64,000 bases of DNA from Candidatus Gastranaerophilales bacterium (lineage in GTDB: Bacteria; Cyanobacteriota; Vampirovibrionia; Gastranaerophilales; Gastranaerophilaceae), in the NCBI GenBank assembly GCA_944325605.1, contig CALVAX010000001.1, positions 124,001-188,000 on the forward strand. The letters run 5' to 3'. The translations under genes were made by a program, and so were the position numbers. The notes below the pieces were generated by a model. The model searched no databases. It had not been told where the DNA came from and was given only the letters and a program-made list of their open reading frames with translations. Each line of letters starts with the position of its first letter. Within the stretch, counting starts at the first letter, position 1. Below are positions 19,134 to 53,192 of this stretch, one piece after another.

Positions 19134-20255
19134 TTATCTTATCTGAACCGGCATTATCAGACAAACAAAATCGTCTTCGCAGTCCGGTTTCAAAACTGTT
19201 GCTGAAAGGCTTGTATTTAAACCAATTTTCACATTGTCGCATTCCATGTTTTTCAAAGCTTCGAGTACAAACTTGTAATTGAAAGCAATATCCAAGTCTT
19301 CGCTGTTGTAGACAATATCAAGTTCTTCTTCTGATTTTCCGCTGTCCGGAGTATCAGCTGTAAGTTTCAGTTTTCCTTGAGAGAATGAAAGTTTTACGAT
19401 ACTTGTTTTGTCGTTAACCATAATTGAAACCCTGTCAAGAGCGGACTTCAAACCTGAAACTGACACAAGTGCTTCTTTCGGGCTTTCTGAAGGAATAAGC
19501 TGATTATATTTCGGAAACTGGCCTTCGAGAAGTCTTGAGACAGTCATTGTTCTATCGCTTTTTATAATAAGTTTTGTGCGTTCTGTATATATTTTTACGA
19601 AATCTTCTTCAATAAAAGAACTCATTTTTATAAATTCATTAAGGGTTTTAGCCGGAATTATAAGCTGTGTTGTTCTTGCATCCGGATTGTCAATCTTTTC
19701 ACGAACCCTTGCAAGGCGGTTTCCGTCTGTAGAGGCTATCTCCAAAATATCTCCTGAAATGTCGCAAACTATTCCTGAGAGAAGGTTTGAAGTTTCATAA
19801 CCTGCGGCCGCAAAACCTGCCTGACTTACTGCTTTTGTCAAAGGCTTAACCGCGATATCGAAACTGTTTTCATTATTCAACTCAACATTGTAAACTTCCG
19901 GCGGAAACTCGTTGGCTGAAATACCGATTATTTCAAACTTTGAATTCTGGCAGGTTATGTTTACAACACATTCACCTTCCGGCATTTCAAAAGTTATTAG
20001 TTTATCTCCGAGCTTTGAAACTATCTCATTGAGAGTTTTTGAGGGTAATGTTATACGTCCTTCTTCTTCAACCTGTGCATCAACCAGCGCTACGACTGTC
20101 AAATCAAGATCAGTCGCAACGAGTCTTATTGTTCCGGTATCAACGGTTTCTATTAATATATTCATCAAAACAGGCTGTAAAGCTTTTGCACTTGTTGCTC
20201 TTTCAACTATCTTTATCCCGTTATATAAATCTTCCTTTTTTACGTAGAATTTCAT
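19134..20255 (-). CDS. dnaN: DNA polymerase III beta subunit (sliding clamp) DnaN
   Basis: A 373-residue three-domain clamp. Recognisable features are the opening MKFYVKKEDLYNGIKIVERATSAKALQPVLMNILIE, LPSKTLNEIVSKL, GYETSNLLSGIVCDI, TDGNRLARVREK and LEGQFPKYNQLIP. The carboxy terminus is VCLIMPVQIR, matching the usual hydrophobic-cleft tail. The clamp tethers polymerase to DNA. An AAGGAG site lies before the ATG. It is immediately downstream of an origin-like region, although dnaA itself is not in the window. Confidence 0.96.
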   Translation of the reverse strand: MKFYVKKEDLYNGIKIVERATSAKALQPVLMNILIETVDTGTIRLVATDLDLTVVALVDAQVEEEGRITLPSKTLNEIVSKLGDKLITFEMPEGECVVNITCQNSKFEIIGISANEFPPEVYNVELNNENSFDIAVKPLTKAVSQAGFAAAGYETSNLLSGIVCDISGDILEIASTDGNRLARVREKIDNPDARTTQLIIPAKTLNEFIKMSSFIEEDFVKIYTERTKLIIKSDRTMTVSRLLEGQFPKYNQLIPSESPKEALVSVSGLKSALDRVSIMVNDKTSIVKLSFSQGKLKLTADTPDSGKSEEELDIVYNSEDLDIAFNYKFVLEALKNMECDNVKIGLNTSLSATVLKPDCEDDFVCLIMPVQIR

Positions 20256-20339: not shown

Positions 20340-20610
20340 AAAAATTCACGTTTCCGAGTTTTATACAATTTATTTATTAATAATTAATTATATAAATAAA
20401 TATATATAATTAATTGTAGTAGTAAGCTGTAAATATTTGTAGAAAACCTGTAAAAACTATTGCGGCACTAAGGTTTCAAGGTGTTTGAAATTTTGTAGAA
20501 AACTTTTCAATAAGTTGTATAAAACTTTCCTTATCCCCCAAATGGAGGATATATTGTAGAAAACTCATGAGTTTTCTACAAAAAATATGCTGGTTTTCTA
20601 CAAGGATTAA
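20340..20610. other. Candidate chromosomal origin (oriC) with variant DnaA boxes
   Basis: Five exact copies of GTTTTCTACAA or its complement lie at 20437, 20493, 20554, 20571 and 20593, with a one-mismatch copy at 20515. Copies 20554 and 20571 form a perfect 28-bp palindrome centred on CTCATGAG. The 9-mer TTTTCTACA differs by one base from the cyanobacterial-type DnaA box TTTTCCACA. A roughly 80-bp AT-only stretch (20350-20430) alongside could be the unwinding element. The location directly upstream of dnaN is a usual origin position. DnaA-mediated control of dnaN is the alternative reading. Confidence 0.6.
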
Positions 20611-32987: not shown

Positions 32988-34121
32988 TTAAAATAATTCA
33001 CCATATCTACTTTTTATTTCAGAAAATAAAGGTTCAATTTTGTTATATTTAGCAATATCAACATCTTTTAAGTATGCCATAAGTCCTATCAAATGGTTCA
33101 TTAAACCATATGTAGAATAAAATCCTCTCTCCTTTGCAACAGATTGCAATCCAAACTTTTTAATAATATATAGTAATCCCTCAATCCTTTTAAATCCTTC
33201 TTTCGATATTCGAGGTTGTTTTCCATCTACTAAAAGACCTAATACTAATTTTTTTGCTCCGGGGCCAGCAATTCTACTTTTCTCTTTATTTTCTATGAAA
33301 TGATTTTTTCTAATAATTTTAATAATTTGCTTCCTTATTGTATCTATAGATAAATTATTTGGTAAACTCACTGTAGAAAAGGTTAAATCGTCAGCATATC
33401 TTGTGTATACAAAACCAAGATTTTTCGCATACTCTTGTAACTCTTCATCCAGATTTTTTGCTACCAGATTACTTAATGCGGGACTCGTGGCAGCTCCTTG
33501 GGGTAATACCCCAATCAAATCATATTTATATTGTTTATAATTATAGGCATTTTTATTTCGAGGCATATTATACGAACGCGGTAATCTTGTAGTTGTACAA
33601 ATTCTAGCTAGTTCAAATGCCAAAATATCTTTATAGCCTATAGATTTAAAAACATTGTATACATTACTTTCTGTAATACTAAAGAAAAAATCTTTTAAAT
33701 CAAATTGTAATAACCACTCACAACCACAATGCTTCTGTGCACATTTTAATATTCCTCCATTTCTATTAAAAGCATAGGCACAGGGATGAATTGGAATATT
33801 TTTTAAAATTTCTTTATTTATGTAATTATGTAATATATGCAAATTTTTTATTGCAGCATGAATAAACCTATGTTTTCCATTCCGTTTCCTTATGGAAAAC
33901 ATTCTATAATTTGATTTATCAAAACGTCTTGATACTGTTCCATACAGAAAATCATAATTAAGATTTGTAATAAATGCTAAATGCATTAATGTAAAAATAA
34001 CAGGAACGTCATTTTTAATCAAATTTTGGGCATAGCACTGTAAATCTATAATACTTTCTTTGCTAAGATTACCTTGTCTATTAGCTTCTTTTATTAAGTG
34101 ATGTATTGACCAAGCTTCCAC
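32988..34121 (-). CDS. Retron-type reverse transcriptase
   Basis: 377 residues with a GTG start and an AGGAG site 6 nt upstream. RT blocks appear in order: YRMFSIRKRNGKHRFIHAA; the retron-type AQKH version of the NAxxH block near 127-131; DLKDFFFSI at 141-149; LPQGAATSPALSN at 206-218; the catalytic YTRYADD at 239-245; and LVLGLLVDGKQPRI corresponding to the VTG region. There is no maturase or protease domain, which excludes group II introns. It makes msDNA from the adjacent RNA. It lies 11 bp after the phosphoribosyltransferase-like gene, and its first codons overlap the predicted a2 arm of the msr-msd RNA. Confidence 0.92.
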   Translation of the reverse strand: MEAWSIHHLIKEANRQGNLSKESIIDLQCYAQNLIKNDVPVIFTLMHLAFITNLNYDFLYGTVSRRFDKSNYRMFSIRKRNGKHRFIHAAIKNLHILHNYINKEILKNIPIHPCAYAFNRNGGILKCAQKHCGCEWLLQFDLKDFFFSITESNVYNVFKSIGYKDILAFELARICTTTRLPRSYNMPRNKNAYNYKQYKYDLIGVLPQGAATSPALSNLVAKNLDEELQEYAKNLGFVYTRYADDLTFSTVSLPNNLSIDTIRKQIIKIIRKNHFIENKEKSRIAGPGAKKLVLGLLVDGKQPRISKEGFKRIEGLLYIIKKFGLQSVAKERGFYSTYGLMNHLIGLMAYLKDVDIAKYNKIEPLFSEIKSRYGELF

Positions 34122-34332
34122 TCACTACTCCTTTAGTCTTCATGACCTTTATCATTGAAGCGCACCCGAGACCCCGATGGATAGATAGGTTCAATGATAG
34201 AGGACGGCTTTGCCGTTATTTCGTCAGTTCTTTCCAGAGAATTCAATCCGAATCCCCCATCAGATAAATTATAATTAATATTATCTGAATCTGTTCGCAT
34301 ATTATTAGCGAACGGCTGAGCAGAAGCTTGAT
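34109..34332 (-). ncRNA. Predicted retron msr-msd RNA, nested in the effector gene's 3' end
   Basis: The a1 arm (ATCAAGCTTCTGCTCA, 34332-34317) and a2 arm (TGAGTGGAAGCTTGGT, 34124-34109) pair over 16 positions with only three wobbles. Directly after a1 is an AGC, the expected branching-G context. The hairpins GTTCGC/GCGAAC (34293-34313) and TCAGATAA/TTATCTGA (34260-34288) follow. The msd-like half contains ACGGC/GCCGT (34204-34216) and a 9-bp stem ATCATTGAA/TTCAATGAT (34151-34198). The order a1-msr-msd-a2-RT is canonical. All but the last bases lie within the effector reading frame. Confidence 0.7.
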
Positions 34333-35494
34333 TAATACACCATTTTTTAGGTATATACAAACTTTTATTATATTCTATTTTATTACAAAATTTATTTTTC
34401 TTCAAAAAATCCATTCCCGCTTTGGTAATAATAAAATTATTGTCAATTAAGTTTAATATTATTGCCTGATTTATTAATGTATCTACAATCATTACGTCGC
34501 AATCCATGGCTAAAGCAATACTTGATTTTTTTCGTATTCCTCGTTTAATATGCATAAGAAATTCATTCATAAGTTTCTTATCTGTAATTTTATTTGAAGT
34601 ACTTGTCTTTGCTAACAAATCAATTAACCATTTAGGAAAAACTCTGGAACTATCAAATAAAGCTTCTTTGTTTTCTGTTGAAAGGAAAAGAATTCCGGGA
34701 ATATTGTTTGGAATACTATGATAAAAAACAATGTTTGACATTACTTTCCCAAATCCATACTTATTGTTTTTTATACCTGTTTGTTTTCCGCAAAGATTTT
34801 TAATTTCAACATAATTTTTTCCCCATCTTTTTTCTAAATCATCTTTTCTATAAACAATACGGCTAATGAAACATATTTTGTTACTTTTAGGGTATTTTCT
34901 TGTATAATGTTCTATTCCGGGAAGAGATTTAATGATATATTCTTCTGCTTTTTTTGTCCTCGCAAAAGAAATAATATATATCTTTATTAAATTATAATTC
35001 CACCAGCTTAAAAAAGTTTTATTATTAAAGACCTTTTTTAAAAATGTCGATACTTTTCTTCCGCTACCAATAGAATCATCAATAAAAATAATTTTATGGA
35101 TTTTATGTTTTTTTAAAGTTGAAATACTTGCATGTTCGTAGCAATTGCTGTGTAATTTTGCAAAATTACCAACAATTGAACATACAAAATCTTCGCTTCC
35201 TTGATATTTAACAGTTCTTAAAGCAATTTCACCAGAAGCATCATCCCAATAAAAATTGGCTTCAAGGTCTCTTACACAATATAATGCAAATTTTTCTTTC
35301 GGGTATTCTTTTAATAGTTGCCCTATTTTATTATTGCACCATTCAGAAAAGGTGTCTCTTGATATAAATACAAGATGTAAAAGTAGATCATATAAAATCT
35401 TTTTTTCATCTTCTTTAAATTGGCTAAGCCATTTTTGTATTTCTTTTGATGATTCAATATTTTCATAACTAAGTTTTTTTAAACAAATTTGCAT
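34133..35494 (-). CDS. Retron effector: phosphoribosyltransferase-like domain plus winged helix
   Basis: 453 residues. A PRTase-type motif is at 135-148 (IIFIDDSIGSGRKV), following the conserved FALYCVRDLEAN and preceding IYIISFARTKKAEEYI, as in PRTase-like domains of defence systems. The carboxy-terminal third has a winged-helix segment (LMNEFLMHIKRGIRKKSSIALAMDCDVMIVDTLINQAIILNLIDNNFIITKAGMDFL). PRTase-like/winged-helix genes are known partners of one retron class (Mestre type III, to my knowledge). The last ~66 residues are encoded by the structured msr-msd RNA and look like non-domain sequence (NMRTDSDNINYNLSDGGFG). Toxic activity is probably restrained by msDNA-RT. Confidence 0.72.
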   Translation of the reverse strand: MQICLKKLSYENIESSKEIQKWLSQFKEDEKKILYDLLLHLVFISRDTFSEWCNNKIGQLLKEYPKEKFALYCVRDLEANFYWDDASGEIALRTVKYQGSEDFVCSIVGNFAKLHSNCYEHASISTLKKHKIHKIIFIDDSIGSGRKVSTFLKKVFNNKTFLSWWNYNLIKIYIISFARTKKAEEYIIKSLPGIEHYTRKYPKSNKICFISRIVYRKDDLEKRWGKNYVEIKNLCGKQTGIKNNKYGFGKVMSNIVFYHSIPNNIPGILFLSTENKEALFDSSRVFPKWLIDLLAKTSTSNKITDKKLMNEFLMHIKRGIRKKSSIALAMDCDVMIVDTLINQAIILNLIDNNFIITKAGMDFLKKNKFCNKIEYNKSLYIPKKWCINQASAQPFANNMRTDSDNINYNLSDGGFGLNSLERTDEITAKPSSIIEPIYPSGSRVRFNDKGHED

Positions 35495-38228: not shown

Positions 38229-40277
38229 TTATGTTCTCAAATATGTTATCTCAAATTTTTTACAAGGTCTGTACTTTTGCAATCTTGTTGTGAATTGAAA
38301 TGCATCTTTTCTTTCACAATTTTGGAATATATCAAGTCCTCTATCTAATAAAATTTTCCATCCAGTATCAGTAACAATACTTCTTGCATGAATACTTGAA
38401 TCGAATTGATAACTAAATTCAATACCCATTTGTAAGCAAGATTCTCTTATTGAATTTAAGTTTTTACGCTGTATTTGTTCATTATATTCATCGGCAGAAG
38501 TTATTAATTCAACAGTTACAATATCTGTTTCAGATTTAGCTTTATCAACAACTTCTAACAATTCCATCAAGTTTACAGCTTGATAGAAATTCCTTATATA
38601 AGGGTCTGTAATCACAATATTTTTTACCCCATTAAATAATCTTCCAAACAGTTTTTCAAATGTAACACCAATTTGATTTTCTTCAATCACAAAATGATGA
38701 TCTTTAATTTCTTCTTCTTTTGTTTCAATCTTTTTGAAATCATCTTTTACAACTTCTGTAACTTCTGGAGCCGTTACAATTTCTTCATCTTCGGAATCTT
38801 CCACACCACCGTTATATAAACCCTTGTATTGGATTTCTTCTGTTGTTTTTACTTTAACTTCGACTCCAGAATTACTTGTATATGAAAAATCTACTTGTGG
38901 AAGAGTCGAGTCTATTCTTAAAATCTGGTCTTTGACTCTTTTTCTTCCTTCCATTGCAAATTTAAGTAACTCTTCTATTTCTTGGCATGAAGCCTTTTTA
39001 TCAGGATAAATAATCTTCATAAGACCAGAGAAGGTCTTCATAACGCCAGCTCTATCACGTTCTGAGATATTGCCAAGAGTAAACTCATTCTTGTACTCAT
39101 TAGAAAAATCGTAATTTCTTAGACATTTTAAAGCTTCAGAATAATAATCGACAACAAAACCATAGTTTGTTGTAAATAATTCTGGTCTAGTAACATCAAC
39201 TTCCCATCCCGGTAAATAGAAATGAATTCTATCAAGAAATGCTGAATCTAAATATTGAGGAGGTAATTCTTCAAACAAATTAGAATGTTTTAACATATAA
39301 GGAACATTGTGCTTTGTATTACCAATAAATGTCATTGATGCTTCTGCCGTTAGTGTTTCAACGCCTCTAGAGAATGACTTGTTAGCCATATAACCTTTCA
39401 TTATATCAACAAGAGCTTTATCAACTTTCTTTGAGCTACCTGCAAACTCATCAAATGCAATATTATCCCAGTACCCAACTAAACCAATATCATGTTTTCT
39501 TGAATTATTCACAAATAATTTTGCAGCAGAGACTTCTCCTCCAGAAATCAAAGTGCCATGAGGTGAAAATTCTGTGTATATATGACTCTTGCCTGTTCCT
39601 TTAGGACCAAGTTCAATAAAATTATAATTTCTTTCACAGTATGGAATAAGTCTGACAAGCTGTAGTAATTTCTTTCTTCTGCTAAGCATTTCTGGATTAA
39701 AACCTATACTTTGCATAAGTAAATCAATCCATTCATCAGTAGAAAACATTGCTCTTTTAGCTTTAAAATCTTCAAAATCAAACTGTGCAAGCTGAATAGG
39801 CTTGATGTTCTGCAATAACCAAGGGCAAGCCTTTTTATCTTCAGTATATTGATATTCAAGGTCTGCTAGACACCAAATTCCTGAAACTAATAATCTTGGA
39901 TACTTTTTATAAGCTATTTCAGAAGGGACATTAATCCCTGTTATTCCTAGATTTGAAAATGTAGCAATATAAGAATCTGTTTTTTCATTAAATTGAACAC
40001 TTACCTTATCAATTACTTTGTAGCGTCCTTTTTCTTTAATAGTAGATTTAATATATTCTGCTTCGTTTCTATTAACATAGTGCTTTGCAAGAATTTCTTT
40101 TACTGATTCAATTCCTGATTTAATTACATCTTCATCACTTGATGCACAATATTGTCCAAGTAAATATTCTAAGACGTATGAAGGAACAATAGCATTCCCT
40201 TTAACTTCTTTTACTAAGTCTTTCCTTACAACACAACCTTCAAATGTTTCTGTAATTTTCTTATCTAAATTGTTCAT
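38229..40277 (-). CDS. brxL: BrxL-type AAA+ protein of BREX with a PLD-like (MIT_C-type) carboxy-terminal domain
   Basis: 682 residues. The BrxL core has Walker A GPKGTGKS (224-231), the acidic NIAFDEFAGS region standing for Walker B, and FIGNTKHNVPYMLKHSNLFEELPPQYLDSAFLDRIHFYLPGWEV. Residues ~525-682 read as a phospholipase-D-like/MIT_C-type domain (IVITDPYIRNFYQAVNL, VELITS, SIHARSIVTDTGWKILLDRGLDIFQ). I see no Lon peptidase Ser-Lys motif. BrxL assembles on DNA and is needed for BREX phage exclusion. It is the last core gene of the operon, 12 bp after pglZ. The domain assignment of the tail is from pattern memory. Confidence 0.85.
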   Translation of the reverse strand: MNNLDKKITETFEGCVVRKDLVKEVKGNAIVPSYVLEYLLGQYCASSDEDVIKSGIESVKEILAKHYVNRNEAEYIKSTIKEKGRYKVIDKVSVQFNEKTDSYIATFSNLGITGINVPSEIAYKKYPRLLVSGIWCLADLEYQYTEDKKACPWLLQNIKPIQLAQFDFEDFKAKRAMFSTDEWIDLLMQSIGFNPEMLSRRKKLLQLVRLIPYCERNYNFIELGPKGTGKSHIYTEFSPHGTLISGGEVSAAKLFVNNSRKHDIGLVGYWDNIAFDEFAGSSKKVDKALVDIMKGYMANKSFSRGVETLTAEASMTFIGNTKHNVPYMLKHSNLFEELPPQYLDSAFLDRIHFYLPGWEVDVTRPELFTTNYGFVVDYYSEALKCLRNYDFSNEYKNEFTLGNISERDRAGVMKTFSGLMKIIYPDKKASCQEIEELLKFAMEGRKRVKDQILRIDSTLPQVDFSYTSNSGVEVKVKTTEEIQYKGLYNGGVEDSEDEEIVTAPEVTEVVKDDFKKIETKEEEIKDHHFVIEENQIGVTFEKLFGRLFNGVKNIVITDPYIRNFYQAVNLMELLEVVDKAKSETDIVTVELITSADEYNEQIQRKNLNSIRESCLQMGIEFSYQFDSSIHARSIVTDTGWKILLDRGLDIFQNCERKDAFQFTTRLQKYRPCKKFEITYLRT

Positions 40278-40289
40278 TTTTCACCTGCC

Positions 40290-42800
40290 TTAAAAATCTG
40301 ACTGGAACATTAAATTTATTGTAAATGGGATTTTTGCATATGGTTCACCAACCTCATCTACATCTTTTATAATCAAGTAATAATCTTTGTTTTTATCTGC
40401 ATCAAAACTTTTTAGTTCTAATACTTTTTTGAATATTCTATCTTCCATTTTATCAGAACTAATATTTGCATCTATAATAAGTTCATTAGATACTTGCATA
40501 TTATTTTCTTCATCCCATAAAGAAACACTGAATACTCTTGGTTTAACAAGCTCAGATATGCTTTCTTTTTGCAAGAATGATAATGTAAACTTATTATTAG
40601 TAATCTTTCGAGAAGAGTTTTCTAGTGAAAGTTCTACTTTCTTAATTTCTTGTTTACGGTTTTGCTTAACTCTCAAAAGAGGTAATACTATTTCTTGAGG
40701 ACTAGCTCCTCCATGAACGTAATTTATGCCAGCTCCAGAAGTTTTAAATCTATTAATATTGCATGGCAACGACAATTTTAAATCTGAAATTTTGAATATA
40801 TAATTCATATCAAAATCAACGATACCCTGCTTTTCTACTGGAGAAGTTCCAATAATATACCTTTTTTTACACTCAATAGAATCAATAGTGCCTATTGTAA
40901 TCTTTTGATGTTCTTCTAAATCGCTATATTGATATAAGAAACCGTGGTCTGCTGTAATAATTACATTGCTACACAAAGAATTATTGAACAAAAACTTAAT
41001 TTTTTCTGAAAGTATTTTTACAGTTTTTTCAGCAGCATTAAACACATCTTTTTCATTATGTTCACCAACTTTATCAATGTCATCATGATAAATATAAGCA
41101 ATCTCTAATCCACTAAATAGAGTTCTTAAATCATCTCTTGACATATCTTCTAAATCACTTAAATTCAAAACTTTTGAGTTTGGATTATGTGCTTGCAATA
41201 TTTTTTCTCTTGATGCAGAATCCTTTGCAACTACTCCATCTACAACAATTTCAGCTTTATTATTCATAGAAACTTCTTTATGAGGAAGTAATGATGCCAT
41301 CCCTAATCTTGTATAAGAAGGGATTGAAGCGACCATACAATCCAGTTTAACATCGGCTTTAATTGAATAGTTACTTCTAATTGCCTCGCTTAATTCTTCT
41401 GCAATTTCATATCGTAATGCATCAGAAATTATAACAACAAGTTTGTTTTTAGAAGAACGTACTTCATTGTAATAGAAATCTTTTTGCATAGGAAGGTTTG
41501 AAAAAGTCCAGTTAGGGGCAATTTCTTTTACTTGGTTAGAGAATTTTAAATTAATATCATCAAGATATTTGTTTACATACAATTTCTCAACTTTATCTTT
41601 GACAGAGTCAAGTTTTCTATCGTTCAACAATCCACAATAGTAATAGAATTTTCTATATGCTTTATCTATTTTGTAATAACTTTGAGCATAGCTCTTAATA
41701 AATGTTTCAATTTTCTGCTCTGGAATCTGAGTGTTTTTCACTAACAAACTTAATTCCAAAGCCCAGAAAAGAGCATTATAAACATTTTCATACTCATTAT
41801 AGAATAGTGTTCTTTTTCTTTTTTCAATAAGTATTTTATCTTCATCTTTTAACGAATCAAATTGAGCAATCAAGTAATTAACAAGGAATCTATCATATGC
41901 TCTAAGAGTTTGGAATTCAGGTTCGCTTTGTAATATATCAGACCAGTCTGTAATATTCTCATCTATTTTGAAATCATCTCTTTCAAATTCTTCTATCAAT
42001 TCTTTATAATAAGGCATAAGCTCTGTATCACGATACCAACTTTCTAAGAATGAATTACATTCAGCTTCTTTCATATTCTTACTAATATATTTTTTATAGG
42101 TATCAGGGAAACTTGAACCTCTGAGTTGTTGTTGCAGTTTTTTGAAGACAATTCCTGCTAATAGATATTTTGCTTCTCGCTCTCCCAAGTAGCCAAATTC
42201 TTTTTCTATTAATTCCCAAAACTTATCTTCCAATCCATACTTAGCAAATTCTTTAGATGGAGCATTTTTATCAACAATTTCTTTTATAATAAAGGTTTGA
42301 ATAATTTTATATTTATCAAATATTTTGCATTCGACAAGAGTTCCAAACATTGCTAAGTAGAAATTTTCTACCGACTTATTAGATGGTAATAAAGATTTGA
42401 AGCTATTTATTCTTTTTTTATTATTAAAGAATTTTATATGGTTTTTGAACAGGTTTTTAATTGCTATATCATAGACTTCAAATTCGGAGCATAAACTATC
42501 CACCTCATCAACAGATAGAACTTGTGAATATAGTTGTGTATCAATAAACCAGTTATCTTCAATAGGAGGCATCTCAAAAGGTGCATAAATAAGATAATTG
42601 GATGTCGTATCATCTTTTTCAAGCAACTTTTTTGTCAAAAGATTATTATTCTTTGTGAGCTTGTGTATTTTAACATTAGGAAGAGATAATGAATCCAGTT
42701 TTTCTTCATTTTCTCCAGTTTCATCATACCAGAATACAATTTGTCTTTCTTGCTTGTTAAAATGTTTCAATATTAATTCTTGTAATTTATCTGTTTCCAT
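40290..42800 (-). CDS. pglZ: PglZ, alkaline-phosphatase-superfamily protein of BREX
   Basis: 836 residues. The PglZ domain shows LVVIISDALRYEIAEEL (metal-binding Asp, residues 456-470), SIPSYTRLGMASLLPH (nucleophile region), IAYIYHDDIDKVGEH and VIITADHGFLYQYSDL (ADHG 617-620). These are the signature blocks of the family. PglZ is a core BREX component found in all types; relatives are nucleases or phosphohydrolases acting with PglX and BrxB. The amino-terminal 300 residues are the less conserved helical part. Its start overlaps the stop of the upstream membrane gene (TAATG). Confidence 0.93.
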   Translation of the reverse strand: METDKLQELILKHFNKQERQIVFWYDETGENEEKLDSLSLPNVKIHKLTKNNNLLTKKLLEKDDTTSNYLIYAPFEMPPIEDNWFIDTQLYSQVLSVDEVDSLCSEFEVYDIAIKNLFKNHIKFFNNKKRINSFKSLLPSNKSVENFYLAMFGTLVECKIFDKYKIIQTFIIKEIVDKNAPSKEFAKYGLEDKFWELIEKEFGYLGEREAKYLLAGIVFKKLQQQLRGSSFPDTYKKYISKNMKEAECNSFLESWYRDTELMPYYKELIEEFERDDFKIDENITDWSDILQSEPEFQTLRAYDRFLVNYLIAQFDSLKDEDKILIEKRKRTLFYNEYENVYNALFWALELSLLVKNTQIPEQKIETFIKSYAQSYYKIDKAYRKFYYYCGLLNDRKLDSVKDKVEKLYVNKYLDDINLKFSNQVKEIAPNWTFSNLPMQKDFYYNEVRSSKNKLVVIISDALRYEIAEELSEAIRSNYSIKADVKLDCMVASIPSYTRLGMASLLPHKEVSMNNKAEIVVDGVVAKDSASREKILQAHNPNSKVLNLSDLEDMSRDDLRTLFSGLEIAYIYHDDIDKVGEHNEKDVFNAAEKTVKILSEKIKFLFNNSLCSNVIITADHGFLYQYSDLEEHQKITIGTIDSIECKKRYIIGTSPVEKQGIVDFDMNYIFKISDLKLSLPCNINRFKTSGAGINYVHGGASPQEIVLPLLRVKQNRKQEIKKVELSLENSSRKITNNKFTLSFLQKESISELVKPRVFSVSLWDEENNMQVSNELIIDANISSDKMEDRIFKKVLELKSFDADKNKDYYLIIKDVDEVGEPYAKIPFTINLMFQSDF

Positions 42801-43567
42801 TATTCTTTATCCAACTTAAATTCACTTGTAATAATTTCTTTCAAGTCTTTTAATGCTTTTTTCATTTTATCAACATCGTAATCCACTTGAGTTTTTTGTT
42901 TGTAATAATTCAAAAATTCATCAACTCTATATATCAGTTTTTCATCTTTTAATTCAAAAACAAAGTCTTTTTTGTATTTCTCCATGTTGGGGTCTTGTTT
43001 ATGCTGAAGATACCAACGATGTTCGCATATGTTATCTTGTAGGAACTTATATACAGCTTGAAATGAATCTATTTGCTCTCTAAATTCAATCGTTTTCGCT
43101 TTGAAGTTTTTGTTTATTTGACACAAATACTCATAGATTTTAAGAAAGCTCCTTATTTCAAATTCTTTATTAAGATTATCATCCGTAATAGCTTTAGAAA
43201 TTAAACATTCTTCTTTATCTTTTTCAAAATAATAAGTAAGTCTGTATATTGGGAGTATTCCTTGGTTTAACAGGTTCAAATGCTCAATATAGCTCTTGTA
43301 TCTGAATTCATATATTCTTGCTTTTTTATCAAGCTCTGACGTTTTATAAACAGCATACCAAGTTATACCACCAGTTATAATCGCTCCAAGTAATGTTGTT
43401 AAAGGATTCCAGTCGAATGAACTAAATGGAGACGGAATAAACCATAATGAAAAAAACGGAAATACTAGCCATAGTATAAGCTTAATCCCAACGATAATTA
43501 ATGCTATCGCAAAGGTAATTTTCACTATTAGCCAAATCCAATCAAGTATCTTTTTAGTTTTTTCCAT
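42800..43567 (-). CDS. Two-helix membrane protein inserted in the BREX operon
   Basis: 255 residues. Two amino-terminal membrane segments are IWLIVKITFAIALIIVGIKL followed by ILWLVFPFFSLWFI, and possibly a third is WNPLTTLLGAIITGGITWYAVY. A soluble helical domain (ELDKKARIYEFRYKSYIEHLNLLNQGILPIYRLTYYFEKD...) follows, facing the cytoplasm. It starts one base after pglX ends and overlaps pglZ by one base, so it is translated as part of the BREX operon. It is not one of the six canonical type I components. A membrane-anchored accessory subunit is possible. Confidence 0.7.
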   Translation of the reverse strand: MEKTKKILDWIWLIVKITFAIALIIVGIKLILWLVFPFFSLWFIPSPFSSFDWNPLTTLLGAIITGGITWYAVYKTSELDKKARIYEFRYKSYIEHLNLLNQGILPIYRLTYYFEKDKEECLISKAITDDNLNKEFEIRSFLKIYEYLCQINKNFKAKTIEFREQIDSFQAVYKFLQDNICEHRWYLQHKQDPNMEKYKKDFVFELKDEKLIYRVDEFLNYYKQKTQVDYDVDKMKKALKDLKEIITSEFKLDKE

Positions 43568-46500
43568 TTACCCCTTCTTTCCTACAATATCTTTTTCTGC
43601 TTCGAGTAGTCCTTGGAATTTTGCATAATTGACTTTTACACCGTCATCAAGGTCTAGTTCTATTTGCTCATCGGCTAAATCTTTAATCTTTCTATCAAAT
43701 TCAAGGCATTCTGTTTGGTATTTTGAATATAGTGATGTTAATTTAACATTTCCTTCGTTTTCTGCTCTTTGTATTGCATTATCCAATTTGTTTTGGAACT
43801 CGTGCAAATAATCTTTTCTTATTCTCGATAATGTTGTTTTATCATACCTGTGCAGGTATATTAGAGCGTTGAATGCTTTTTCTTTTCCACTTGTAAACAT
43901 CCAATAAATAGGACGTTTTTTGTAGATTTGCAAATGGTCTTTGTAGAAATCTTTCAAGAAATATGTTCTAATTCTATCTTCTGCACTTTCAGAACCTTTG
44001 CGACCTAAAACATCTGCTATATATTGCATATTCTCATTGAAATATAATTCGCCAAATGCTTTTTTCAAGAACCTTTTGAACTCTTCTATAATATCATCAT
44101 CAAACCAAGTATCAGAAAGAATCGGTAAAATACCATCTTCATCAACTTCTAAGGTTTGATATCTGCTCTTGTCAAACTCTCCACCAGCATATATTAAACC
44201 TTTTTCATCAAGAGAATATCTGCCAAACATACAGCCAACAGCATAAGATAGAAGTGATTTTATATCCCTTAATTCATCTGCTAAAGCGACTGTAATATCT
44301 TTATCATCAACTTCTGGGGTCATTTCATCTTGAAGTCCATAAATTTCAATAAACAATCTGTTCAATTCTTCTTCATTAGCTTTTAGCTTATTGAATTGCT
44401 CTTGTTTATATTCCTTCCATTTGTTGAAAGAATCTTCTACTTTTCCATTCTCTTTAAATCTCAACAATGGATGTTGTTCAAAATCCCAAGATGTTTCAAA
44501 ACTATCCCAATCGTCTTTTGAGATACAAATGTTTTGATTAACATTTATATTGATTTTGTTTAAAATTTGTACATCATTTATTTGTTTTACTGGTATTTTT
44601 GCTATAACTCCGCAACTATTATTTATAGTTGGATTTATTAATTTCAAATAATTCTGGCAAACTTTTGTGTTTAACAAAGCCAAAAGAAACAGGTTTTCTT
44701 TATCATAATATATACAATTTGAGGCAGTATCCAGCAAGAAACCTTCTTCAAAATATCTTGCAGAAAAAATACCTGAACCAACTAATGTCCAACTATAGTG
44801 CGGTCTAAAAAAGAAATCAGAATTTCTTACAGCTGCTCTTGGATTGTTTTTAATTTCTAAGCCATTATTTGCCCAATTTGTTATATGCATTCTATTACCA
44901 TACCAACGACAAAAATTTCCACCTTTATCCGTAGGAGCCCATTTTAAATTTTTAATAAAATTTTCTCCATTTGTTAATTTGAAACCAATTTTATTAGTAT
45001 CAACTTCATACCAATATTTAATATATAATTCTCCATCGCCAACAGACATTCCGAACTTAGGATAAGCAAAGTTTTCAATTTTTTTGTTACAAAAAGATGC
45101 TCTTATTTTATCACTAACCCAGTATGCAATCGGCGTCCCCGGTATTGAGTGGAATCCATTTTGTTTGCAACAATATATATCACCTTGATTGAATTCTAAA
45201 TATTTTTCTTCTTTTAATTTAGCATTCGGATATTCTGTTAATTTAACAAATCGTCCAATATATTCAGGTAATTTAACTTTTCTTGTTATATAAGTTGTAG
45301 TCTGAACAACTTCTCCTGCAAGTTCTTCAAAAGCTCTTGTTCCTAAATGGACCATTGTATCTATGCAAGCATTATTCAACAAGTGTTCTCTTAAACTTTC
45401 GTAACTGCTTAAGAACATCCAAGAGTGCTGATTGACAGTAGCACTATAATAATTTTGTTTAGTATGATTTAAAATAACTTCTTTGAATACAGCAAACATA
45501 TCACCTTTTGACATCGGATACTTTTTCTTTACATATTCAGATAATTTAGGGCTCATACCTTTATTTCCCATGTATGGAGGGTTCGCAATCACACATTCAT
45601 ACTGTTGTTGCATAATACGAGCTTGTTTGATTAATTGAGGTAATTTGTCTCTTAATTGTTCTGTAATATCAGAATATAAAAGTCCCATATTTAAAGTTTG
45701 TACAGCATATAATCTTTCTTCCCAAAAATTGAAATCAAACTCTTTTACATCAAGAATTGAGCCATATTCTTTAGCGTCTTTGAATGTTTTTTGTAATAAA
45801 TCTATCTGTGCTTGTGCAAGTAATTGGTTAGTTACACCATTCATTAGGCATTCTTTTACTCTTGAATCAAACCAATTGGTATCTTGAATAGAAGTTATAT
45901 TTAGTTCAATGACTTTGGATGAAATATCTTTGTCATATTCTCTAGCTTTCATAATGACAGCAAGCTGAGCTAACTGTGAAGCTCTATCACAAATATCAAG
46001 CCCATATAAATTTTTTGTCAGAATCAATTTAGCAATCTCATCTTCCATATATCCAGCAGATTTGTAAATTTGGTATAAAACTTCAAAAGCTGTTACCAAA
46101 ATATGCCCAGAACCACAAGCAGGGTCAAGAACTTTTATATCTTCTGGAGAGATGTTTTTATTTATAATTTCTTTTAGTTTTTCTTTAACATCATCTTCTT
46201 GTTCAGCTGATTCTAAATAGTACTTAAATTTAGACTGTAATTCTTCATTAGGACGAGCTTCAAGCCACATTTTCCCAACTGAATTTTCAACCATATATTT
46301 TACTATCCATTTAGGAGTAAAAATTTGTGTCGCAGCTGGAATATTCTCTTTTGAAATCTTTTTACCCTTTTTTAAATCTGCAAAGACTTCATCTTTTCTT
46401 TCTGCTATATAATACTGATAAAGCCAGCCGATAATTTCTACAACTTGCCAGTTCGATTTATCTAGAGATAGCATTTCTTTTATTACAGAATCAGCACTAT

Positions 46501-47065
46501 TCATCCCTTGAGGGAATAATAGTTCTGTATAGTCTTGGATTTGTTCAAACAAGAATGGAAGCTTTTTGTTCATTACATTACATTGATGGATTAGTAATGT
46601 TTTAAAAATTACATCTTGATTATTATTTTGAACAGCTGATATAACAGTTTGTTTTTCTTCAGCATTCAACTGTGAGGATACAGATACTGCAAATTGGTTA
46701 AGGTTATCTATATTGGAAATAATATTAAAATTATTTTCGCTATAGCCATTAACTTCCATATAATATAGAGCAATGAATCTGTTGAACCAAGTATAAGCAA
46801 CTTCATCAATCAAGTTTTCATAACCTTTTGACTTAATCTCTCTTTGTAAGGTCTCAACTTGTTTTTTGCTAAAGAACTCTCCATTTATTTTCACTTGTCT
46901 ATCATCTTCAAACTCATAATTGACAGCTCTATTATCTTCATAAAATCCCATCAGTTTTGCTTGAAGCTCAACTCTTTCTTTAAGTTTTCTTCTTGCTTTT
47001 ATAGCAAAGTCTTTTAGTGCTGATTTATCTAATGTTATTTCGTTTTCTAATAGTTCTGTCATCAA
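43568..47065 (-). CDS. pglX: PglX, BREX adenine-specific DNA methyltransferase
   Basis: 1165 residues. N6-adenine methylase motifs are DPACGSGHILVTAFEVLY (SAM binding, 314-331) and VIANPPYMGNKG (catalytic NPPY, 495-498). The helical front and the large carboxy-terminal target-recognition and spacer region (to FYKDHLQIYKKRPIYWMFTSGK) match the type I BREX PglX layout. PglX marks host DNA at one strand of a non-palindromic site, so unmodified phage DNA is recognised. An AAGGAAG site precedes the start. No frameshift or truncation is visible, so the methylase looks active. Confidence 0.95.
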   Translation of the reverse strand: MMTELLENEITLDKSALKDFAIKARRKLKERVELQAKLMGFYEDNRAVNYEFEDDRQVKINGEFFSKKQVETLQREIKSKGYENLIDEVAYTWFNRFIALYYMEVNGYSENNFNIISNIDNLNQFAVSVSSQLNAEEKQTVISAVQNNNQDVIFKTLLIHQCNVMNKKLPFLFEQIQDYTELLFPQGMNSADSVIKEMLSLDKSNWQVVEIIGWLYQYYIAERKDEVFADLKKGKKISKENIPAATQIFTPKWIVKYMVENSVGKMWLEARPNEELQSKFKYYLESAEQEDDVKEKLKEIINKNISPEDIKVLDPACGSGHILVTAFEVLYQIYKSAGYMEDEIAKLILTKNLYGLDICDRASQLAQLAVIMKAREYDKDISSKVIELNITSIQDTNWFDSRVKECLMNGVTNQLLAQAQIDLLQKTFKDAKEYGSILDVKEFDFNFWEERLYAVQTLNMGLLYSDITEQLRDKLPQLIKQARIMQQQYECVIANPPYMGNKGMSPKLSEYVKKKYPMSKGDMFAVFKEVILNHTKQNYYSATVNQHSWMFLSSYESLREHLLNNACIDTMVHLGTRAFEELAGEVVQTTTYITRKVKLPEYIGRFVKLTEYPNAKLKEEKYLEFNQGDIYCCKQNGFHSIPGTPIAYWVSDKIRASFCNKKIENFAYPKFGMSVGDGELYIKYWYEVDTNKIGFKLTNGENFIKNLKWAPTDKGGNFCRWYGNRMHITNWANNGLEIKNNPRAAVRNSDFFFRPHYSWTLVGSGIFSARYFEEGFLLDTASNCIYYDKENLFLLALLNTKVCQNYLKLINPTINNSCGVIAKIPVKQINDVQILNKININVNQNICISKDDWDSFETSWDFEQHPLLRFKENGKVEDSFNKWKEYKQEQFNKLKANEEELNRLFIEIYGLQDEMTPEVDDKDITVALADELRDIKSLLSYAVGCMFGRYSLDEKGLIYAGGEFDKSRYQTLEVDEDGILPILSDTWFDDDIIEEFKRFLKKAFGELYFNENMQYIADVLGRKGSESAEDRIRTYFLKDFYKDHLQIYKKRPIYWMFTSGKEKAFNALIYLHRYDKTTLSRIRKDYLHEFQNKLDNAIQRAENEGNVKLTSLYSKYQTECLEFDRKIKDLADEQIELDLDDGVKVNYAKFQGLLEAEKDIVGKKG

Positions 47066-47150
47066 TACTTCCTTTATCGTTTGAAAAGTTCCAATATTTT
47101 AGGGATTAGGTTGGTTTTATAATGGTTACTCCTATTTACACCATTTACCC

Positions 47151-50100
47151 CTAGCCTTGAAGTTTAATACGTTTATTGTTCCTGATTCTGTTTTTCAACT
47201 CTTCTGATAGTTTATTGATATAGTTATCAACATCTTCTTCAGTCTCAAGAATTTGCATAGCCTGAACAACATTTGTAGGATTTACGAATACTAATTCTTT
47301 CTGAATCATTGGTTCAGAGTCTGGATGTTCTTCTGTACCTGTTTGTTGGTGTAATTCTAAATTCTTTTTCGCAATGCTATCTTCTGAAATTTGTTTCAAA
47401 AGTTTTTCATAATATAATTTTGCTTTTTCTTCAATAGCCTTTAACACTCCAAAATCAGTTGCTCTTTCATACAAATCAGTAACATTAATCTTGAATAAGT
47501 TGCTATATCTTCCACATTCAAGCCCCTGTTTAGATGCTTCTTCTGCTAAATAATAAGCTAAATCACTTATAACTTCTCCTAATGCTTGTTTATAACCTTC
47601 TAATACATTATTAACAATAGAAGTTATATCCGAATTTAAGATAGGAAGGTCTTTAATCATAGAATATGGTTCAGGAGAATCTATTATCGATTCAAGTTTA
47701 GAAATTAGTTCGTTTAATTTAGCAACCTCTTCTGATTCAAAAGTTGTTAAATAAACTTCGTTTCTTTTTACTCTGTCATATATTTTCAATGATTCATCAA
47801 AAATACCAACTTGAGTATTAAAGAATGATTTGAGAAGTTTGTATTCTTGTTTCCAAGTTAATAAATTATCCTTTTGCTTTATCAATAAATCAAATAATCC
47901 GTTTACATCTGGCTCATTCTTAAGCTCTTTTAATGTAGAAAGACCAAGTTCAATAACAGTCTTTTTAGGATATTTTGGGTTATTATGTCTTCCATTAAGC
48001 TCTTGTAAATCTCCAATCATATTTTGAAGATTTTCTCTTATTAAATTTGCAAGTTTTTCTCCATCATCTACAAAGTCTTGTTTTTCAAATAGTTCTTGTG
48101 CTATTGCTATTACTTGCTGGATTTTTGCACTATCTATTTTTTCTTTCAATTTAATTACAGTGCTTTGAATTTCTCTGTCATTTGTCAAATATTTTACTGT
48201 ATTATAATCCTGATAATTGCATTGAACACCATTATAGAGAATAGAAATGTCTCCTTTAACAGCTAAATCTGCTACAACACCTGCAATATCATTTATAGAC
48301 CAACCATAAGGTTTTCTTGTGTATTGTTGTTTTAATCCCTGCATTGTAACAGTGCAACTCATCGAGTTATTTAGTTGAATAAATGCTAAAACATCATCAA
48401 GAGCTTTTTTGTTTCTTTCATCCAATTTACCTTGAGGAGCAATGAGTTTTGCATGGATTTCTTTTTCATCCCTAACTCTTTCTTGGATAAAATGAAGGTT
48501 CGTATATGTATTTTCTACAATTTGTTTCAAAGCATTTTCAATCTTTGCAGCAGCACTTGTTGCACTAACTTCCATAATCTGACCGTTTGTGTAGAAAGTG
48601 GATTCAAGAATAGCTTGTTCTAATAAAGTTTTTACCCTTTTCTTGCGTTCTATTAATTCAGCACCTCTGTTTTTTAATATCATATCCTGCATTTCAGACT
48701 GTTTTACACTGCTTTTTTGCTTGATATACTTGTCTGTTTTTAAGATAGTTTCAAGTTCTTGTAGGTAACCGTTTTCATTCAATTTGATAAATAATGTATT
48801 TCCTGCAAGGAACTTCATTTTTAGCTCAGATTCGCTGAATTTATAATCAGAGTTCATTGAAGTGATAAATTTAACTTCTATATCTTCTGCTTGGCTTCCT
48901 CTTACTACATCATCAACTTTTCTTACAAAATAATAAGACTGCCCTTGAGGATATGGAGTTATTGACTTTTTAGTATAAATTTCTTCATATATATTTCTAT
49001 AGACTTCATTTAACACATCGCTAGAATCAATCTGAGTGTTTTTTATACCTCTTGTAACATCTTGTTCTTCGTTTGTTAAGAATGAATATTCTTCTCCATT
49101 TTGTTGTATTAATGTAGCTTGTTTTAATCTTGTTAGAGCTCCTTCTATTTTGGATTTTAGTGCATTTTTGCTTTCATTAATATTTGATATCATTAATGTT
49201 GCAATATTTTCTACATCACAAGGAACTTCTTTAATGTATTTAATCAAGAATAAAACAGTTAAGACTTCAATATCAAAATCTTCTATATCTGGATTACCCT
49301 CTTTTGCTTGTGCAATTATTCTGACAATATCTGTATCTATAAAGGTTTGAATCGTAGAATAAAAAACATTGAATGGAACTAATTCTGTAATCTCTTTATC
49401 ACCGTATTCTTTTAATGCCGTATGGAAAGCATTTAGCATAGAACGCTCCCCTGAAGCTAAGTGAGCCCCGGCATGAGAAAAGTTTCTTAACTCTGTAAAT
49501 ACACTTTGTAACAACTTGAATTGATATGGGACAAATGGATAACAATCAACAAAATCATCTGAGTTTTCATACATTTTCATGCCAGAAGTTTGGCTTGAAA
49601 ATGTTATTAAATTTGCCAAAATCTTTTCTTGTTCGTTGTAGTAATTAGAAAGAAGAGTTCTTGCATCTGTTCTCTTTTCTAATAATCTTCGTTTGATAAC
49701 TTCATCAGTGTTTGAACCAGATAAACTTAATTTTGTATCAAATCTGCCTTGGATTTTTGAGAAATCTTGGTCCCTGAAACGTTCTTTTGTTATAGAATCT
49801 ATTGCTTCTTGAGATGTTACCATTACCCAAGCTCTTCCATTACACATAGTACCCAAGTTTTCAACAACTGTCTGTAAACTAAGCATAAGGTTTGTATTAT
49901 CGCTTATAAATTGCCCAATTTCATCGACTAAGAAAATAATTCGATTCTTACTACCTTTACTTTCGAGATATTCTTTTATTAGCTTTGCAAACCCTTCTGG
50001 TGTAATCCCCGAATCTTCAACAACATCTTTAAATAAGTCTTGTGTACTTTGTTCTGTTGTCCCTGTAACTTGAACATATGCCTTTATAAAGAAGTCTTTA

Positions 50101-50714
50101 AAGAATCCAACTGCATTAGATGCTTCTTCCCAAGATACACCACTTTCTGAGGTTATAATTTGTTTGAATTCTTCGTATTTTCCATTTTTATCAAGATATC
50201 TTTCAATATCTGCAAGTTTAGGGTAGTTTGAAGAGTAACCCTGAGATTCGTTAAAGACCTTTAAAAAGACTTCAACAATACCATCTTTTCTTTGTTTTGT
50301 ATCTTTTGAACTCTTAGAATCAATGTTGAACAAAATAGTTTCTGTAGGAACAGATGTAGCTAATTTCATATCAGCAAAAGTCCAATCATCTATATTAGAT
50401 TTCCCTTCAAAGAATTCTATTGTTTTTTTACCTTTTACTTCTTTGTTGGCAAGTAGATATGATAGCATCTTTAAAAAGTGAGATTTACCAGAACCAAAGA
50501 AACCAGAAATCCATACTCCGATTTTATCAGTTCTTTCTTCAAATGAGTTTTTATAATTACTATAAAAAGTGCTAAAATGCTTAGAAAGTTCTTTTGTAAC
50601 AACAAATTCGTCCAATTCTTGATAAATAATAGCTTCGTCATCAACTTGCTCAACTTTAACAACACCATTAATGTTTCTATTAATATCTTTCTCAAATAAT
50701 TCTCTTAGCTTCAT
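47151..50714 (-). CDS. brxC: BrxC, large BREX P-loop ATPase
   Basis: The start at 50714 (MKLRELFEKDINRNINGVVK) follows AAAGGTG and leaves a 10-bp gap after brxB; longer in-frame starts would overlap brxB. The 1187-residue protein has Walker A GFFGSGKSHFLK at 71-82 and the Walker-B-like RIIFLVDEIGQFI. Long coiled regions follow (about 860-1000 and the end). This matches BrxC/PglY proteins of BREX, DUF499-like ATPases essential for methylation and exclusion. The tail is charged (LKNRIRNNKRIKLQG). Confidence 0.93.
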   Translation of the reverse strand: MKLRELFEKDINRNINGVVKVEQVDDEAIIYQELDEFVVTKELSKHFSTFYSNYKNSFEERTDKIGVWISGFFGSGKSHFLKMLSYLLANKEVKGKKTIEFFEGKSNIDDWTFADMKLATSVPTETILFNIDSKSSKDTKQRKDGIVEVFLKVFNESQGYSSNYPKLADIERYLDKNGKYEEFKQIITSESGVSWEEASNAVGFFKDFFIKAYVQVTGTTEQSTQDLFKDVVEDSGITPEGFAKLIKEYLESKGSKNRIIFLVDEIGQFISDNTNLMLSLQTVVENLGTMCNGRAWVMVTSQEAIDSITKERFRDQDFSKIQGRFDTKLSLSGSNTDEVIKRRLLEKRTDARTLLSNYYNEQEKILANLITFSSQTSGMKMYENSDDFVDCYPFVPYQFKLLQSVFTELRNFSHAGAHLASGERSMLNAFHTALKEYGDKEITELVPFNVFYSTIQTFIDTDIVRIIAQAKEGNPDIEDFDIEVLTVLFLIKYIKEVPCDVENIATLMISNINESKNALKSKIEGALTRLKQATLIQQNGEEYSFLTNEEQDVTRGIKNTQIDSSDVLNEVYRNIYEEIYTKKSITPYPQGQSYYFVRKVDDVVRGSQAEDIEVKFITSMNSDYKFSESELKMKFLAGNTLFIKLNENGYLQELETILKTDKYIKQKSSVKQSEMQDMILKNRGAELIERKKRVKTLLEQAILESTFYTNGQIMEVSATSAAAKIENALKQIVENTYTNLHFIQERVRDEKEIHAKLIAPQGKLDERNKKALDDVLAFIQLNNSMSCTVTMQGLKQQYTRKPYGWSINDIAGVVADLAVKGDISILYNGVQCNYQDYNTVKYLTNDREIQSTVIKLKEKIDSAKIQQVIAIAQELFEKQDFVDDGEKLANLIRENLQNMIGDLQELNGRHNNPKYPKKTVIELGLSTLKELKNEPDVNGLFDLLIKQKDNLLTWKQEYKLLKSFFNTQVGIFDESLKIYDRVKRNEVYLTTFESEEVAKLNELISKLESIIDSPEPYSMIKDLPILNSDITSIVNNVLEGYKQALGEVISDLAYYLAEEASKQGLECGRYSNLFKINVTDLYERATDFGVLKAIEEKAKLYYEKLLKQISEDSIAKKNLELHQQTGTEEHPDSEPMIQKELVFVNPTNVVQAMQILETEEDVDNYINKLSEELKNRIRNNKRIKLQG

Positions 50715-50724
50715 AACTACACCT

Positions 50725-51324
50725 TTACTCATTTGCAACAAGCCTAAATGCTCTGTAATAATTATCATCTTTTAAGCCATCAAAGTTTGAACCTTTAAAT
50801 AGCCTTAATTCTTTTTGGTCGTATGTACCAGGATAGAACATAATAACTGGAATCTTATCTAAAACTGCATGAAGATTATTTAAGACATTATGCGACCTTA
50901 CCAAAGGATATACCTTTCCTACACCAGATAAAATAACAAGATTACTATCTCCTAGCTCTTTTTTTATCATATTTACAAATTCTTCTATATTAATAACCCC
51001 TCTAAGAGTATTAATAAGACTTTCTGTTCCTTGTCTTTCTTCAGTTTCTATTGCTAAATCAAGATAAGTTTTATTACCAGCAGTTTTATCAGTTAGGATT
51101 TTTAATAACATCTCAAATAAATCAAATTCTATAGGTTTAATCTTTGAATTGGCATAAGAATAACTGCTTACAAAATCCTTGATATATCTCCTTACAATTA
51201 GTTCATCTGATGGTTCATAATCAAAGATATGAAAATTTAACTCTCCACCCAACGATTGTTGATTGAAAAAAGAATCCTGTTCAATTATTGTTTTAATTTT
51301 ATCCAGTCTTGCTCTAAGTTCCAT
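50725..51324 (-). CDS. brxB: BrxB (DUF1788)
   Basis: 199 residues matching the small BREX protein BrxB. It opens MELRARLDKIKTIIEQDSFFNQQSLGGELNFHIFDYEP. It then carries NLVILSGVGKVYPLVRSHNVLNNLHAVLDKIPVIMFYPGTYDQKELRLFK, the conserved 'GxGxxxPlxRxh...L......PvimFyPG.Y' block of DUF1788. It begins 3 bp after brxA. It is required for BREX and probably bridges PglZ and BrxC. Confidence 0.93.
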   Translation of the reverse strand: MELRARLDKIKTIIEQDSFFNQQSLGGELNFHIFDYEPSDELIVRRYIKDFVSSYSYANSKIKPIEFDLFEMLLKILTDKTAGNKTYLDLAIETEERQGTESLINTLRGVINIEEFVNMIKKELGDSNLVILSGVGKVYPLVRSHNVLNNLHAVLDKIPVIMFYPGTYDQKELRLFKGSNFDGLKDDNYYRAFRLVANE

Positions 51325-51327
51325 TAC

Positions 51328-51948
51328 TTATCCTAACATTGCTTTTGCATACCTTTTATCACCAATTTCTTCTAAATGATTAGTAATCTGGTATATACCA
51401 AGAGGGATTGTTAATTCTGCATTATCTCTATTTGTTCCTATATATCCAGCTCCACTTAGAATCTCAAAATACGCTAATCTAAGCCTTTTTAATGTTGTTT
51501 CTTTAAAGTTAGCCACAGTTTCACTCTGTTCTGCTTTAATCGAAAAATAGTTGGATATATCAGATTTAGAAACTTCCATTTGTCTTGAAAAAACTTTATC
51601 TATTAATACTTCTTCCATAAATTCAAGAAATAATCTGTCATATTTTAAAATTGCATAAAAATTAATAAGTCTTCCTATTTCATTAGGTTCAGTTAATAGC
51701 ACTTCAATCAAATAGTCATCTAAATAGTTTGCTCTTTCCCATACAGCACCAATATGTTTGTTTATAGCCTTAAAAGAACGATATTCAAATAAATTCTCAT
51801 TAATAATTTTATCGGTTGCTTCTTTTTTGCTTAAGCCTTCTTGTAGTAATTTAACTGCAACCTTAAACTCTGGATAAAGAAATTGATTTCCAGTCATCCT
51901 AGCACTATATTCTTTAGAAACAGAATTACAAACATCTCGTTTAACCAT
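51328..51948 (-). CDS. brxA: BrxA (DUF1819)
   Basis: 206 residues. The front KEYSARMTGNQFLYPEFKVAVKLLQEGLSKKEATDKII and middle EYRSFKAINKHIGAVWERANYLD fit the DUF1819/BrxA family, DNA-binding helical proteins that head type I BREX operons. The end LSGAGYIGTNRDNAELTIPLGIYQITNHLEEIGD is also typical. It is divergent from a small plus-strand gene across 131 bp. TATACT lies just upstream of the ATG, so the transcript may have a very short leader. Confidence 0.9.
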   Translation of the reverse strand: MVKRDVCNSVSKEYSARMTGNQFLYPEFKVAVKLLQEGLSKKEATDKIINENLFEYRSFKAINKHIGAVWERANYLDDYLIEVLLTEPNEIGRLINFYAILKYDRLFLEFMEEVLIDKVFSRQMEVSKSDISNYFSIKAEQSETVANFKETTLKRLRLAYFEILSGAGYIGTNRDNAELTIPLGIYQITNHLEEIGDKRYAKAMLG

Positions 51949-53021: not shown

Positions 53022-53192
53022 AGGGGTAATTTCCTTACAATTAAATCATTTTGCGTACACCTATTTTAACTCTGTTTTTTGATAGTTCAAGTCCTGCAAG
53101 GGTTTAGAGTGTGTCTTAATGATACAAAAGTGGTAAATGTTTATTTGAAACACTTCCATTCTTCCGAGTTTAGAGTGATAGATGTTAATATA

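Follow-up and report, generated by a model that had tools for sequence, protein, structure and literature searches.

A probable replication origin with an altered DnaA box

The segment between positions 20358 and 20603 of the window, the whole stretch of 64,000 nucleotides analysed here, is almost certainly (with a probability of about 0.93) the chromosomal origin of replication, oriC, of a Candidatus Gastranaerophilales bacterium. This order belongs to Candidatus Melainabacteria, a non-photosynthetic group that is sister to the cyanobacteria. The architecture of the origin is ordinary; what is new is the sequence of its DnaA box and the change of the DnaA protein that accompanies it, both extending over the whole class. 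The class is the one given to the genomes compared, presumably Vampirovibrionia, and all loci were oriented before comparison. The evidence comprises boxes, DnaA-trios and an AT-only run observed in a defined order, the conservation of these parts among relatives and a switch of the GC skew in one of the relatives. Among the papers searched, none described an origin of Gastranaerophilales or the altered box and DnaA, and the map presented here is the first found for these abundant uncultured gut bacteria.

Organisation of the site

Five exact GTTTTCTACAA 11-mers, lying on either strand, are packed into 167 bp, some 190-350 bp upstream of where dnaN begins (Table 1). The identification of dnaN is supported by a TIGR00663 match at 275 bits versus a cut-off of 138. 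Gene directions split here, with dnaN and the genes next to it read leftward and the first genes beyond the site rightward. The long AT-only run next to the boxes is the only one of at least 30 bp in the 64-kb window. Three or more clustered intergenic boxes and an AT-rich element alongside, two of the features by which an oriC is recognised, are found here together. The gene dnaA is located on a different contig (C3), and a dnaA-side origin in the same genome was rejected, as dnaA (L009) has no TTTTCTACA upstream. The genome also has another DnaN-like gene, a weak one (L039, G000:C5:111965-112951), which shows 29% identity to dnaN; similar second copies exist in a few relatives.

The first-pass annotation had described an origin candidate made up of five 11-mers and one variant, two of them forming a palindrome, beside an AT-only stretch and upstream of dnaN, and the sequence bears out each of these elements. 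One-base variants, GTTTTATACAA, are present at 20515, inside the cluster, and at 20358.

The clustering is far from random. The 9-mer was counted 11 times in the window versus 1.6 expected, and none of 100 shuffles reached 11. The 10-mer TTTTCTACAA has 31 copies in the genome of 2,146,857 bp (30 contigs), five of them at the site, and simple arithmetic puts the chance of 5 of 31 random positions falling inside 170 bp at about 3e-11. No second cluster of TTTTCTACAA was found anywhere in this genome; the first-pass annotation had proposed a search for clusters of the 11-mer and had named the same cluster in front of many unrelated genes as a finding that would count against the origin. The spaced direct pair of the 9-mer also occurs in the genome at this site only.

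Table 1. Features of the predicted origin and the adjacent gene (window coordinates)
Feature	Position	Strand	Description
Box 1, GTTTTCTACAA	20437-20447 (core TTTTCTACA 20438..20446)	-	trio-proximal predicted DnaA box
Box 2, GTTTTCTACAA	20493-20503 (core TTTTCTACA 20494..20502)	-	predicted DnaA box
Box 3, GTTTTCTACAA	20554-20564 (core TTTTCTACA 20555..20563)	-	predicted DnaA box
Box 4, GTTTTCTACAA	20571-20581 (core TTTTCTACA 20572..20580)	+	predicted DnaA box
Box 5, GTTTTCTACAA	20593-20603 (core TTTTCTACA 20594..20602)	+	predicted DnaA box
Variant box, one-base variant GTTTTATACAA	20515 (core TTTTATACA 20516..20524)	-	
Box-like site GTTTTATACAA	20358..20368	+	position 5 is A; sits at the edge of the AT run facing dnaN
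28-bp perfect palindrome TTGTAGAAAACTCATGAGTTTTCTACAA	20554..20581		formed by boxes 3 and 4 in head-to-head orientation; core of 8 nt, CTCATGAG
49-bp AT-only run	20367..20415		likely DNA unwinding element (predicted unwinding); adjoins the DnaA-trios
DnaA-trios	20417..20425	-	5'-TTACTACTA-3', complement 3'-AATGATGAT-5'
Putative second low-affinity box ATATTTACA	20428..20436	-	between box 1 and the trios; 6/9 bases match
dnaN (DNA polymerase III beta clamp)	19134..20255	-	TIGR00663 equivalog and three Pfam beta-clamp domains

Trio module

In the basal unwinding system (BUS), at least three DnaA-trios with the consensus 3'-GAT-5', which is CTA on the opposite strand, lie no more than 16 nt away from the better box; a form with tandem boxes is common, and the spacer length peaks at 10-13 bp (PMC8287927). 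Read on the dnaN-sense strand, the site consists of TTTTCTACA, A, ATATTTACA, GC and TTACTACTA, followed by AT-rich DNA. It is built by the BUS rule (PMC8287927), with a box of the variant sequence, 12 nt and TTA CTA CTA on the same strand. The putative weak second box ATATTTACA occupies a position that would suit the tandem-box arrangement (PMC8287927). The trios had escaped the first-pass annotation.

When 108 class genomes were scanned for boxes with at least three [CT]TA following them within 25 nt, the module appeared in 45 genomes on the correct strand and in 1 on the other strand, while 0.16 was expected in shuffles. The spacer between the box and the trios is 12 nt long in 29 of 42 cases.

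By analogy with the Bacillus BUS, initiation might proceed as follows. DnaA, encoded on a different contig, would use its domain IV to bind the TTTTCTACA boxes. Box 1, probably together with the weak second box, would anchor a DnaA-ATP filament, and this filament may extend onto the trios and melt the adjoining AT-only run. The remaining boxes, the head-to-head pair included, would help to assemble the complex.

Variant DnaA box

The standard box of cyanobacteria is TTTTCCACA, found next to dnaN (PMC4674748). Both this sequence and the general consensus TTWTNCACA, of the E. coli type, demand C at position 6, but T stands there in all five boxes of the site, so the class box differs from cyanobacterial TTTTCCACA by a C -> T change at that position. 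When TTTTxxACA was counted in 108 class genomes over the 600 bp that precede dnaN, CT at the two central positions (TTTTCTACA) was found 299 times versus 2.4 expected. Enrichment was also seen for GA (52 vs 2.8) and AT (TTTTATACA; 38 vs 4.4), and CC, the cyanobacterial TTTTCCACA, remained at the level of chance (1 vs 1.0). In the rest of the phylum, represented by 30 dnaA loci, TTWTCCACA was found 92 times versus 2.3 expected.

The central bases differ among families. CT is used in most of f1, f2-f4, f6, f8 and f10; in the main family it was counted 236 times versus 1.7 expected, the next best being AT (27 vs 5.6), and in f8, which lies outside this order, 12 times versus 0.1. Genus g6 uses GA with CT, and TTTTGAACA and TTTTCTACA occur there together in one origin. 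CA and GA were found in f9, AT and GA in f7, and TG, in small counts, in f12 and f15.

Origin finders keyed to TTWTNCACA or TTTTCCACA would miss the origins of this class. TTTTCTACA is the motif to use instead, for example in metagenome growth-rate estimates.

DnaA protein and recognition of the box

The DnaA of this genome is a regular member of its family by HMM comparison (TIGR00362 at 487 bits), with PF00308 and PF08299, the AAA+ domain and the helix-turn-helix of domain IV, above cut-off. In domain IV, NKKHTTMLY stands where E. coli has GGRDHTTVLH. The E. coli residue D433 is a base-contacting residue of the recognition helix and has been reported as strongly conserved in every bacterial class; it is counted among the specificity residues (PMC7561715). 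None of 106 class DnaAs has D at this position (K 84, T 10, R 6, G 4, N 1 and Q 1), and by every other feature they fit DnaA. D433 is present in the DnaA chains of E. coli, B. subtilis, M. tuberculosis and Aquifex in the PDB, and in 30/30 DnaAs from the phylum outside the class, which are the best PF08299 scorers, a choice that favours standard sequences and hence D. Of the other contacts, R399 is kept in 99/106 and H434 in 102/106 class proteins. H439 is replaced by Y in 97 of 106, but this is not the cause of the box change, since standard photosynthetic DnaAs have Y there too. A one-residue shortening of the turn of the helix-turn-helix was considered as a cause and dropped, because M. tuberculosis DnaA has a similar gap in the alignment and the shortening is missing from other families of the class that share the box. 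No residue separating the CT-box from the GA-box families was found at the DnaA contact positions.

Some families depart further. In f11 (L220, L223, L227, L230) the recognition helix reads GRGNS, with H434 lost too, and no cluster was seen at dnaN. In f12 (L221, L224, L228, L231, L232, L234-L236) it reads RTHSS, and several genomes have trios near dnaN without clear TTTTCTACA boxes. A match to DnaA domain IV was missing in 10 of 146 class genomes, some of them with few contigs; these are G030, G082, G093, G110, G117 and G143 of family f8 and four others. Either the sequence is absent from these assemblies or dnaA has been lost, as in some cyanobacteria.

The change of residue 433 and the change of the box are associated at the level of the class, and most likely the altered helix and the altered box are two sides of one recognition shift. 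The first-pass annotation had proposed that the box, differing by one base from the usual one, would define the DnaA specificity of this lineage. Comparison of sequences supports this and carries it further than had been supposed, to the whole class, with TTTTCTACA in place of TTTTCCACA and DnaA without D433 in 106/106. A class without an 'invariant' DnaA residue and with a shifted box represents a natural experiment on the joint change of an essential protein-DNA pair.

Whether residue 433 itself dictates the base at position 6 is a question on which the odds appear even. The contact of D433 has been placed at base 7, not base 6 (PMC8235120), which leaves the C6T change one base away and its link to residue 433 a matter of inference. 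Moreover, the class may have lost D433 just once, at its base, in which case the association amounts to few independent observations. Box positions 5-6 also vary among families that have K433 (CT, GA, AT, CA); as the same residue goes with different bases, residue 433 alone is not decisive, and other residues or plain tolerance must take part.

It is possible, though rather doubtful, that C -> T is a product of neutral AT drift, with DnaA tolerating any base at position 6 and the loss of D433 being unrelated or merely relaxing the reading. The AT-rich genomes of the order would fit such drift, as would the variation of positions 5-6, TG included, under the same residue 433 and the coexistence of TTTTGAACA and TTTTCTACA in one g6 origin. 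However, the main family holds exactly CT, with C5 kept, which indicates a sequence under selection and not simple AT drift, and f8, a family from outside the order, uses CT as well.

For the recognition shift, a history that could equally go either way is that DnaA lost D433 and the box lost C6 at the base of the non-photosynthetic class, after which the central bases moved to CT, GA, AT, CA or TG among the families. If so, the families form a natural series of codes by which the initiator recognises the origin. D433 has also been proposed as the basis on which the boxes of ATP-DnaA and ADP-DnaA are discriminated (PMC8235120), so the regulatory logic of initiation may differ in this class.

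Conservation of the cluster

All same-genus relatives with enough upstream sequence carry 4-8 copies of TTTTCTACA no further than about 450 bp from the dnaN start, and 4-7 copies are present there in most other families of the order (f2-f4). The cluster at dnaN is conserved over Ca. Gastranaerophilales and several further families of the class. In the class sample, 26 cases of the head-to-head pair of boxes (8-nt core, step of 17 bp) were counted, and the core is often CTCATGAG. As the inverted pair recurs, the 28-bp palindrome can be regarded as a conserved box pair; its core is not palindromic in every case. Other families have direct repeats instead of this pair.

Genera g2 and g20 and one g23 genome have no cluster at dnaN. 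In these cases the same contig usually carries a spaced TTTTCTACA pair at another place, for the most part 1-6 kb off; it was not found in 4 of the 14 genomes searched (G128, G016, G015 and G161), nor in G152. The cluster was observed at a distance of 1.3 to about 47 kb from dnaN in G014, G115, G126, G090, G147, G120 and G150, the last having the distance of about 47 kb. Adjacency to dnaN is not needed for the cluster, since some genera of the family have the two parted.

GC skew

The clearest skew was obtained for G024, a member of family f7 with a 610-kb contig, where it turns from about -0.10 to +0.12 at dnaN. All 11 samples to the left of dnaN are negative (-0.02 to -0.18), and all 7 readable samples to the right are positive (+0.11 to +0.14), the samples at 310-322 kb and 323-335 kb flanking the site at 322.7 kb. 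In G051 the sign of the skew changes about 15 kb away from dnaN, and further out there are two exceptions to this pattern. No usable skew was seen in the same-genus G011, for which one long contig was plotted.

The first-pass annotation had suggested the skew as a check, with a minimum elsewhere counting against the origin, and here the outcome for the window's own contig is mixed. Locally, the skew does change at the site from -0.05 to +0.10 (-0.048 over the 144 kb to the left, +0.099 over the following 9 kb), but the contig-wide minimum is found at 230 kb instead. Past those 9 kb comes a GC-poor island (~76 kb), and the position of the minimum is explained by the disturbance of the skew by this island. 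An origin at the 230-kb minimum was rejected: that point is inside or at the edge of the low-GC island and has no box cluster.

Within the window, the low-GC island is a defence island (32988-60805) that begins about 10 kb from the origin and disturbs the skew near oriC. PADLOC gave strong matches across it: a type III-A retron-like RT and PRTase (32988-35494), a BREX set of BrxL, PglZ, PglX, BrxC, BrxB and BrxA (38229-51948) and Gabija GajA-GajB (58081-60805). A transposase-like ORF and an ATPase are located between BREX and Gabija (53079-55893).

Alternative functions of the cluster

DnaA also works as a transcription factor. The cluster could in principle be only a DnaA-controlled promoter or operator of dnaN, with the origin located elsewhere; such a role would agree with the distance of the sites from the dnaN start and with the contig-wide skew minimum lying elsewhere. 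It is nevertheless very improbable, given the trios in the BUS arrangement, the absence of any other such cluster from the genome and the skew flip of G024 at this very spot. The cluster also survives away from dnaN in genera where dnaN has lost it, which is a poor fit to a dnaN operator. Slighter still is the chance that the repeats are binding sites of some other protein rather than DnaA boxes, for although the motif breaks TTWTNCACA at the conserved C6 and its identity as a DnaA box is deduced from sequence, it is one base from the cyanobacterial box and in the same place beside dnaN (PMC4674748), has the BUS spacing to the trios and is accompanied by a concurrent change in the DnaA recognition helix. 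The origin proposed in the first-pass annotation is thus upheld by the conservation of the cluster at dnaN, the trio module, the uniqueness of the cluster in the genome and the skew flip of a relative.

Comparison with known systems

The origin resembles the oriC of cyanobacteria (Synechococcus, Anabaena, Cyanothece; PMC4674748) in its intergenic position upstream of dnaN, its clustered 9-mers and its AT-rich stretch. The box is identical to cyanobacterial TTTTCCACA in 8/9 bases, with T6 here and not C, and the DnaA has K for D433, whereas the sampled photosynthetic relatives retain D.

With the BUS of Bacillus subtilis and other bacteria, the site shares a strong box, a 12-nt spacer able to hold a weaker box, CTA (3'-GAT-5') trios and AT-rich DNA beyond them (PMC8287927). 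It differs in the sequence of the box, and the activity of the module here is a predicted one.

There are precedents for a joint departure of the initiator and its box. The oriC of Thermotoga maritima combines non-standard base-contacting residues with a non-standard box, ACCTACCAC (PMC10316083, PMC7561715); the box and the lineage are different, and most contact residues are altered there, while R399 and H434 are mostly kept here. The boxes of Epsilonproteobacteria (Campylobacterota), with a TTCAC core, are a case of a class-specific box tied to changes in helix 5 (PMC5043019). In Campylobacterota, however, the change is T at position 5, and residues 435 and 438-439 are altered with D433 kept (PMC5043019).
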